Below, piece by piece: positions 37,833-39,752 of a DNA stretch of 39,752 nt. A program made the position numbers and the translations under genes. How positions within the stretch are numbered: the first letter of the stretch is position 1; each line of letters opens with the position of its first letter. The stretch covers positions 1-39,752 of the forward strand of contig JAFEEH010000125.1 of the NCBI GenBank assembly GCA_018241185.1. The letters run 5' to 3'. The notes beneath the pieces were generated by a model. It made no database searches. It saw only the letters and a program-made list of their open reading frames with translations, and was not told where the DNA came from. The stretch is from Pseudomonadota bacterium (lineage in GTDB: Bacteria; Pseudomonadota; Gammaproteobacteria; Burkholderiales; Burkholderiaceae_C).

Positions 37833-39293
<1,461 letters not shown>

Positions 39294-39343
39294 GCCGCGA
39301 CGCTTGATGCGAATTGGCGACATGCGCTTCGAAGACCCTGTGC

Positions 39344-39349
39344 TAGAGT
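39344..39349 (+). promoter_or_regulatory. Candidate promoter (-10) for the aroG leader
   Basis: TAGAGT preceded by TGC forms an extended -10 (TG-N-TAGAGT). It lies 8 nt before the leader-peptide ATG, so the transcript would begin within a few bases of that start codon. There is no ribosome binding site before the leader ATG, which is consistent with leaderless translation. Confidence 0.45.
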
Positions 39350-39357
39350 CTGCCCCC

Positions 39358-39432
39358 ATGCCTGCCTCGCGCGCTTACTACTTTGCCTACTTTTGGTTCC
39401 CGGATTCCGGCGGACGAGTGGCGCGCGCGTAA
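39358..39432 (+). CDS. Aromatic-rich attenuator leader peptide upstream of aroG
   Basis: A 24-codon ORF carries the run YYFAYFWF at residues 7-14: three Tyr, three Phe and one Trp in eight codons. This is the hallmark of a leader peptide whose ribosome stalls when aromatic tRNAs are undercharged, as in the pheL or trpL leaders of enteric bacteria. It is followed 24 nt later by an intrinsic terminator and then by DAHP synthase, the first enzyme of aromatic amino acid synthesis. Codons 17-19 contain CCGGCGG, which can pair with the 5' arm of the terminator. The mixed Tyr/Phe/Trp content suggests the switch reads all three end products. Confidence 0.85.
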   Translation: MPASRAYYFAYFWFPDSGGRVARA

Positions 39433-39456
39433 CAGCAGACAGACCGAACCCCTCAG

Positions 39457-39490
39457 AACCGCCGGTGCGAAAGCCCCGGCGGTTTTTTCT
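39457..39490 (+). terminator. Intrinsic terminator (attenuator) before aroG
   Basis: The stem AACCGCCGG (39457-39465) pairs perfectly with CCGGCGGTT (39476-39484) around a 10-nt loop and runs into a TTTTTT tract (39483-39488). CCGGCGG also occurs at 39407-39413 inside the leader ORF, offering an alternative, mutually exclusive partner for the 5' arm (39459-39465), as expected for an antiterminator. Confidence 0.88.
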
Positions 39491-39538
39491 TGGCCGCCCC
39501 GAAATCACCCGCCACAACAACCCAGAGGAAAAACGAGC

Positions 39539-39752
39539 ATGAGTCCCAAAGCCACCCCCGGCACCAGCGAATCCTGGTACGCGCAACCCGTCGAGAAGAC
39601 CAGCCAGACCGACGACCAGCGCATCAAGGACATCAACGTGCTCCCTCCGCCCGAACACCTCATCCGCTTCTTCCCCATCGGCGGCACGCCGGTGGAACGG
39701 CTGATCGGCCAGACGCGCCACGCCATCCACAACATCATGGCCGGCAAGGACG
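39539..39752 (+). CDS. aroG: 3-deoxy-7-phosphoheptulonate (DAHP) synthase, 3' end missing
   Basis: First enzyme of the shikimate pathway, joining phosphoenolpyruvate and erythrose 4-phosphate. Only the first 71 codons are in the window. They match the N-terminus of type I (AroF/G/H-type) DAHP synthases: DDQRIKDINVLPPPEHLIRF, then a segment ending ARHAIHNIMAGKD-like (read here as TRHAIHNIMAGKD). AGAGGA lies about 9 nt before the ATG at 39539. The gene is preceded by an aromatic leader peptide and terminator, so it is probably controlled by attenuation. Which isoenzyme it is, and whether it also has allosteric feedback control, cannot be told from the fragment. Confidence 0.88.
   Translation, partial: MSPKATPGTSESWYAQPVEKTSQTDDQRIKDINVLPPPEHLIRFFPIGGTPVERLIGQTRHAIHNIMAGKD

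Follow-up and report, generated by a model that had tools for sequence, protein, structure and literature searches.

The end of the window, by which we mean the whole stretch of DNA analysed (39,752 nucleotides; contig 28 of a 5.3-Mb source genome), carries the features collected in Table 1. A gene for a TldD metalloprotease ends at 39293 and is followed on the same strand by a short leader ORF, an intrinsic terminator and the first part of a DAHP synthase gene. A sequence-only reading of this DNA had listed an extended -10, a 24-codon ORF with seven aromatic codons in eight, a 9-bp terminator with its T-tract and the DAHP synthase start, all of which are indeed read in the sequence. It had also pointed out that a CCGGCGG segment of the leader (element C) duplicates the terminator 3' arm and can pair with the 5' arm. 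The identity of C to the 3' arm core and its complementarity to the 5' arm (element E) are evident, and a role as antiterminator is backed by covariation of C with E.

Table 1. Features at the end of the window, with positions counted from its first nucleotide
Feature	Position	Strand	Basis or remark
Extended -10 (TGnTAGAGT), TGCTAGAGT	39341-39349	+	Sequence; recognisable -35 absent
Leader peptide ORF, 24 aa, MPASRAYYFAYFWFPDSGGRVARA	39358-39432	+	Ends with TAA 39430-39432; Shine-Dalgarno not apparent
Control codons Y Y F A Y F W F (7 aromatic of 8)	39376-39399	+	Trp codon 39394-39396
Element B, GGTTCCC	39395-39401	+	Predicted 5' side of hairpin hiding C
Element C, CCGGCGG, putative antiterminator 5' arm within leader ORF	39407-39413	+	Covariation with terminator 5' arm
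Element D, GAGTGG (GAGAGG in most relatives)	39416-39421	+	Predicted 3' side of hairpin hiding C
Intrinsic terminator, 9 bp, AACCGCCGG (39457-39465) / CCGGCGGTT (39476-39484)	39457-39488	+	Sequence
Element E, CCGCCGG, terminator 5' arm and putative antiterminator 3' arm	39459-39465	+	Sequence, folding, covariation
Element F, CCGGCGG, terminator 3' arm core	39476-39482	+	Sequence, folding
T tract of terminator	39483-39488	+	Sequence
AGAGGA, likely Shine-Dalgarno of DAHP synthase	39524-39529	+	Sequence
DAHP synthase (type I, AroG-like), 5' part only	39539-39752	+	ATG at 39539; cut by contig end after 71 codons

The 71 residues of the enzyme match the NCBIfam models AroG (E = 3e-05) and aroFGH (E = 2.5e-04), far below the full-length cut-offs, and a full-length DAHP synthase homologue of the same genus (L009) matches PF00793 at 1.5e-94. 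A simple promoter and terminator scan of the window returned 0 sites of either kind at this locus. The likely reasons are that the loop of the 9-bp stem, at 10 nt, exceeds the 3-8 nt that the scan accepts, and that the promoter has no -35. Folding of 39345-39500 gives a structure whose stability exceeds that of 199 of 200 shuffles (z = -2.78), a score to which the terminator contributes. An Rfam search of 38900-39752 at E up to 5 gave two matches only, ar35 and PtaRNA1, both far below cut-offs, and hence none to the Phe, Trp or other amino acid leader families; three leader peptides matched no family in NCBIfam or Pfam. Elsewhere in the window's genome, a gene of the KdsA/DAHP-synthase family (L004, contig C202, 777-1679) is split over two overlapping frames and is either a broken gene or a sequencing error.

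Searching related genomes, we found the start of the enzyme in 15 of 15 genomes searched in the genus and in 146 of 150 in the family. Upstream of DAHP synthase, an aromatic-rich leader ORF is present at 157 of 161 loci from the GTDB family of the window; the four exceptions are two loci with only 143 and 109 nt of upstream DNA (L162 and L165) and two second DAHP synthases of their genomes (L163 and L164). ORFs with at least six aromatic residues in nine occur in 148 of 159 family upstream regions versus 0 of 795 dinucleotide shuffles. With a looser cut of four in nine, 157 of 159 upstream regions pass versus 64 of 795 shuffles, so that weak leaders alone are no evidence. All 157 leaders contain Phe, 154 contain Tyr, 148 contain Trp and 145 contain all three. 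The terminator reaches at least 20 on a simple score at 156 of the 157 loci. Codons and terminator are therefore kept together, the opposite of the pattern, codons lost while the terminator is kept, that the sequence-only reading had named as evidence against itself.

Across the 148 Trp-containing leaders, columns -6 to +1 are 67-100% aromatic, except column -3 (39%), with Phe directly before Trp in 143 and Tyr or Phe two before it in 132. The exact string YYFAYFW, searched in 399 genomes of the order, matched the window's own genome only, because the first aromatic residues vary, and this search was superseded by those with the enzyme and with an RNA model. The leader peptide of L206 (Xenophilus sp. 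E41) differs by one residue from that of the window, that of L204 (Xenophilus aerolatus) equals that of L008, and that of L254 (Pseudacidovorax intermedius) equals that of L016, both L008 and L016 being loci of the window's genus; Xenophilus belongs to the Comamonadaceae, Burkholderiales, and the window's source is probably close to this group. Phe codons in the leaders are TTT in 61% of cases versus 15% in the examined part of the following gene; TTT and the other Phe codon are probably read by one tRNA.

Past the aromatic run, the peptide shifts frame (SVPGGREASA, HRTGGGEANA, NAPAVESSER, or an early stop), and leader length ranges from 18 to 29 aa across the family, while RNA elements such as GGCGG and GAGAGG are mostly retained. 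GAGAG lies between the aromatic codons and the terminator in 137 of 157 leaders, compared with 0 of 157 in an equal-length upstream control, and is absent in the window itself. One could suppose that the ORF is a small protein gene with an independent function, that the terminated RNA acts in trans, or both, since the aromatic run is kept at the peptide level and the leader RNA and peptide of the Sinorhizobium meliloti trp attenuator are described as having trans roles in the part of the literature at hand (PMC7298713). We consider this unlikely, because the C-terminal half shifts frame and varies in length, and because the conserved RNA elements account for much of the remaining conservation. 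Frame drift combined with kept RNA elements fits an RNA switch better than a working peptide.

Beyond the family, the arrangement is widespread in the order and specific to one DAHP synthase. A pattern scan of named genomes gave, among 120 loci listed, 110 with DAHP synthase 93-194 nt downstream of the pattern; of the other 10, three have a leader near the end of the available DNA, and seven lack a leader ORF and look like chance matches. Genera among the matches listed include Comamonas, Variovorax, Hydrogenophaga, Limnohabitans, Polaromonas, Polynucleobacter, Rubrivivax, and Roseateles. An RNA model was built from 56 leaders (alignment A1 holds 56 of the 157, after six odd ones and those above 165 nt were dropped and the remainder thinned by similarity). 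It matched 140 of 300 order genomes at E <=0.01, many of them by the terminator only, and 9 of 229 class genomes at E <=1e-4, three of which are of the window's own family. At the best 30 order loci of this model, DAHP synthase lies downstream in 30 of 30. Outside the window's family, 62 of 68 loci have both enzyme and leader, which is not an unbiased rate since the loci were picked by their match to the RNA model, and the other six (L319-L323 and L362) have no DAHP synthase nearby. In all, and counting the window's own family, the order has 14 families in which the leader is found; f63 is the one such family outside it.

In genomes with a leader copy, no such ORF stands before 18 of the 20 other DAHP synthase copies; weak, unrelated ORFs precede the remaining two (L368 and L383). 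L383, the second DAHP synthase of a genome from another family (G158), is 76% identical to the enzyme of the window's genus and has no comparable leader. In genome G542, two DAHP synthases stand in tandem (L166 and L164), with a leader on the upstream one only. A sample of 30 loci from the class included one of the window's own family (L384), with the leader present; among the 29 from other families, no leader ORF was found at 27, while L398 (f63) has a leader and L388 has an unrelated Trp/Arg-rich ORF. The f63 leaders (L317; L318/L398), FYFWYYFPKP and FYRWYYFPKP, precede DAHP synthase in two genomes and resemble those of family f23, which could reflect either transfer or shared ancestry. Class II DAHP synthase, looked for as a partner enzyme, is present in only 4 of 79 genomes.

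Promoter geometry ahead of the leader is also largely conserved across the family. In 143 of 157 family leaders, the ATG is preceded at a distance of 12-16 nt by an extended -10 (TGnTAnnnT), compared with 4 matches in the 40 positions from -57 to -18 of the same leaders, and no conservation is seen around their -35. The usual distance from the -10 to the transcription start is 6-8 nt, so that at this spacing the RNA would start at or next to the leader AUG. A Shine-Dalgarno core precedes the leader ATG in 1 of 157 family leaders, and the base before the ATG is C in 77%. By a permissive test, a Shine-Dalgarno core stands before some in-frame DAHP synthase start in 131 of the 157 relatives. Promoter spacing and the near absence of a Shine-Dalgarno suggest that the leader transcript is probably leaderless, a feature that the sequence-only reading had overlooked. 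There is a precedent in S. meliloti, whose trp attenuator RNA is described as beginning with the leader ATG (PMC7298713, from the portion available). Among the 62 leaders outside the family, the geometry is less regular, with TAnnnT in 29, the extended form in 18 and a Shine-Dalgarno in 4.

The pairing of C with E provides evidence that the leader forms an antiterminator. Locating C by a position matrix blind to E, we compared each sequence's own C:E pairing with swapped combinations. In the family (156 sequences, L057 left out), own pairs average 6.378 Watson-Crick pairs of 7 versus 6.206 when swapped (sd 0.022), and with the order added (214 sequences, using 58 of the 62 outside loci) they average 6.313 versus 5.995 (sd 0.027); in both cases 0 of 1000 swaps reach the own value, although the swaps retain shared ancestry and related species are not independent, so that the true significance is weaker than 1 in 1000 would imply. 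In the 58 outside loci alone, the own value again lies above all 1000 swaps. A version with 8 nt and wobble pairs is weaker in the family, with 13 of 1000 swaps reaching the own value. The signal can be followed at single positions in the 214 loci: pair 4 is G-C in 204, A-T in 8 and G-T in 2, and pair 6 is C-G in 137, T-A in 25 and T-G in 11, with 41 unpaired combinations. All ten CCGT arms stand opposite an unchanged CCGGCGG 3' arm, so the terminator is not the driver of the change at pair 4. Two loci, L069 and L112, have matching C/E changes by eye. This covariation supports C:E as the candidate antiterminator.

The sequence-only reading had suggested looking for covarying stems in relatives, and C:E covaries; for the second, predicted stem, B:D, swap tests give no comparable support. 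When folded, element D pairs mainly with the B region, just past the Trp codon, with a mean probability of 0.58 of 0.87 total (141 sequences), and inspection of single sequences had seemed to favour B:D covariation. The formal test in the family (147 of 156 leaders) is negative: own pairs average -6.85 versus -6.87 kcal/mol for swapped ones, with 282 of 500 swaps as good, and with 108 distinct pairs 115 of 500 swaps are as good. Across 15 families the signal is weak, own pairs being better in 312 of 400 draws. RNAalifold, run on alignment A1, recovered no structure other than the terminator.

Leader codons, promoter and terminator are thus conserved, and C:E covaries, in comparisons made entirely at the level of sequence. 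They bear on an alternative explanation, in which the terminator merely ends the upstream tldD gene, lying as it does downstream of tldD on the same strand, and the leader ORF is incidental. We regard this as highly improbable, because promoter, leader codons and antiterminator arm are jointly conserved between tldD and the terminator, and because the leader is missing from 18 of 20 other DAHP synthase copies.

How a ribosome on the leader could act on these pairings was modelled by folding the RNA up to E with the ribosome footprint masked at each codon. Over 156 leaders (again without L057), the predicted mean antiterminator probability is 0.90 with the Trp codon in the A site and 0.58, 0.19, and 0.04 at the next three codons; in the window it falls from 0.97 at Trp to 0.00 one codon on. 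For stalls at the aromatic codons up to Trp, the mean is 0.88, and at codons 2-4, ahead of the aromatic run, it is still 0.72, so the stall window has no sharp 5' limit. The antiterminator is lost within two to four codons past Trp when the leading edge is set at 10 to 14 nt, a loss that is partly plain geometry, since the footprint reaches C. In 137 of 147 leaders, C follows the Trp codon at a distance of 12-16 nt, and in this model that codon would be about the last position at which a stall permits antitermination. With a ribosome on the stop codon, antitermination is again predicted (mean 0.56; window 0.85), and low basal readthrough would therefore need quick release or timing. With no ribosome, the family mean is 0.36, which is not a clean off state, and the window value is 0.00. 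When the full terminator is included, E:F prevails at every ribosome position in the window, and the switch must therefore be kinetic.

Taken together, we conclude that the locus is, with a probability of about 0.87, a ribosome-mediated transcription attenuator of DAHP synthase, which catalyses the first step towards the aromatic amino acids. Attenuation, the central claim of the sequence-only reading, is well supported by conserved codons, covariation and specificity to one DAHP synthase, all read from DNA. In the proposed mechanism, promoter geometry would have RNA polymerase start on the leader AUG or no more than about two bases from it, and a ribosome would initiate on this AUG without a Shine-Dalgarno. 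When charged Phe, Tyr or Trp tRNA is scarce, the ribosome would stall in the YYFAYFW run, where folding predicts that it hides B and leaves C free. C could then pair with E as E emerges, the E:F terminator would be blocked, and the DAHP synthase gene would be read. When the aromatic tRNAs are charged, the ribosome would advance over C, or depart and let the B:D hairpin re-form; with C covered or sequestered, E would pair with F and transcription would stop.

Which amino acids such a leader senses is a separate question, and here the sequence-only reading, which had proposed a pan-aromatic sensor, holds in part. At the codon level, Phe, Tyr and Trp occur together in 145 family leaders, but Trp is missing from 9 of 157 (for example, YFGFS, YFRFS, and FFIS) and from most leaders of several other families. 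Among outside leaders, all 62 of which contain Phe, Trp is present in f23 (8/8), f63 (2/2), f12 (1/1), f40 (1/1), f3 (4/5), f32 (3/5), f13 (2/4), f10 (3/7), f4 (1/7), and f8 (1/8), and it is absent from the one f30 leader and from all leaders of f11 (4/4), f20 (4/4), and f44 (5/5), the last three families together giving 0 of 13 with Trp. By eye, the Trp codon shows no simple link to the number of DAHP synthase copies in 79 genomes. In our reading of these sequences, Trp may be an add-on to a Phe/Tyr sensor.

The attenuation reading can also be drawn more narrowly, without contradiction: the effective sensor would be one for Phe and Tyr, or for Phe only, with the single Trp codon of little weight. 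The means per family leader (4.4 Phe and 1.7 Tyr versus 0.97 Trp), the universal Phe of family and outside leaders, and the absence of Trp from 7 of 8 f8 and 6 of 7 f4 leaders as well as from those already named all point this way, as does the FYF leader of Corynebacterium glutamicum, which the available text describes as responding to Phe and not Tyr (PMC11802643). Against it, 148 of the 157 family leaders retain Trp, placed close to the last position at which a stall would still be effective, and Trp is also present in the f23 and most f3 leaders, whose surrounding residues differ. We see this narrower form as having an appreciable but clearly minority chance. Stated as a general model, and to our mind not quite an even bet, attenuation here may amount to a Burkholderiales-wide leaderless OR gate: a stall at any Phe, Tyr or Trp codon would open the shikimate pathway, with Trp near the last permissive position, and lineages would change what is sensed by acquiring or dropping the Trp codon, with the RNA switch itself preserved. 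If so, the promoter at the DAHP synthase gene would need no repressor.

These results offer a concrete, testable account of how a large bacterial group may control entry to the aromatic pathway. Because some families have the Trp codon and others do not, nature offers an experiment on how attenuators come to sense what they do. Attenuation would also account for two things that annotation easily misses, the short leader ORF and the probable presence of a small terminated RNA.

Among the closest known systems, pheL-pheA and trpL-trpEDCBA of Escherichia coli likewise combine leader codons for the end product with a mutually exclusive antiterminator and terminator. They read one amino acid each, have a Shine-Dalgarno and serve branch enzymes, whereas the leader described here stands at the pathway entry. 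The sequence-only reading had held that classical leaders read one amino acid, which is too narrow, since single leaders such as those of E. coli ilvGMEDA and thr hold codons for several amino acids in which a branched pathway ends; they resemble the present leader in this respect but belong to the branched-chain and threonine pathways, not the aromatic one.

At the DAHP synthase gene itself, a counterpart is the C. glutamicum aroR leader before aroF, which has aromatic codons and is described as attenuation in the passages available (PMC4046766, PMC11802643). The likeness lies in an aromatic-codon leader peptide before DAHP synthase. Compared by description only, it differs in being actinobacterial and F-Y-F, with Trp not mentioned in the available text, and in its reported response to Phe but not Tyr (PMC11802643). 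Attenuation has been proposed for E. coli aroF (Camakaris 1980, as cited in the relevant parts of PMC2659441 and PMC8632094), and Table 7 of PMC1173090, drawn from a web database and covering tyrA operons only, gives putative attenuators before the DAHP synthase-tyrA (aroF-tyrA) operons of two Vibrio species and before the gyrA-serC-pheA-tyrA cluster of Bordetella parapertussis. The E. coli and Vibrio cases are, as here, proteobacterial and suggest attenuation at a DAHP synthase gene, and a tri-aromatic leader is not given in the portions of these sources at hand. The uORFC-13-1 motif before aroF of Acholeplasma is similar in that DAHP synthase is preceded by a terminator and by a predicted uORF containing one or more Phe codons, but it belongs to another phylum and is described, in the text available, for Phe codons only (PMC8632094).

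In the open literature, as far as its available text goes, we found no description of such a leader in Burkholderiales; an earlier description may exist in subscription papers, among them the 2004-2005 comparative attenuation surveys and the primary C. glutamicum study (Neshat 2014). The mechanism is of a known class, and what appears new, as far as open papers show, is the combination of a multi-aromatic codon set, a wide spread in the order and a probable leaderless start. The last of these links the DAHP synthase leader to the S. meliloti trp attenuator, which has a leaderless transcript as well, with a start that is known there and deduced here, and which differs in being a Trp leader (PMC7298713, in the portion available).
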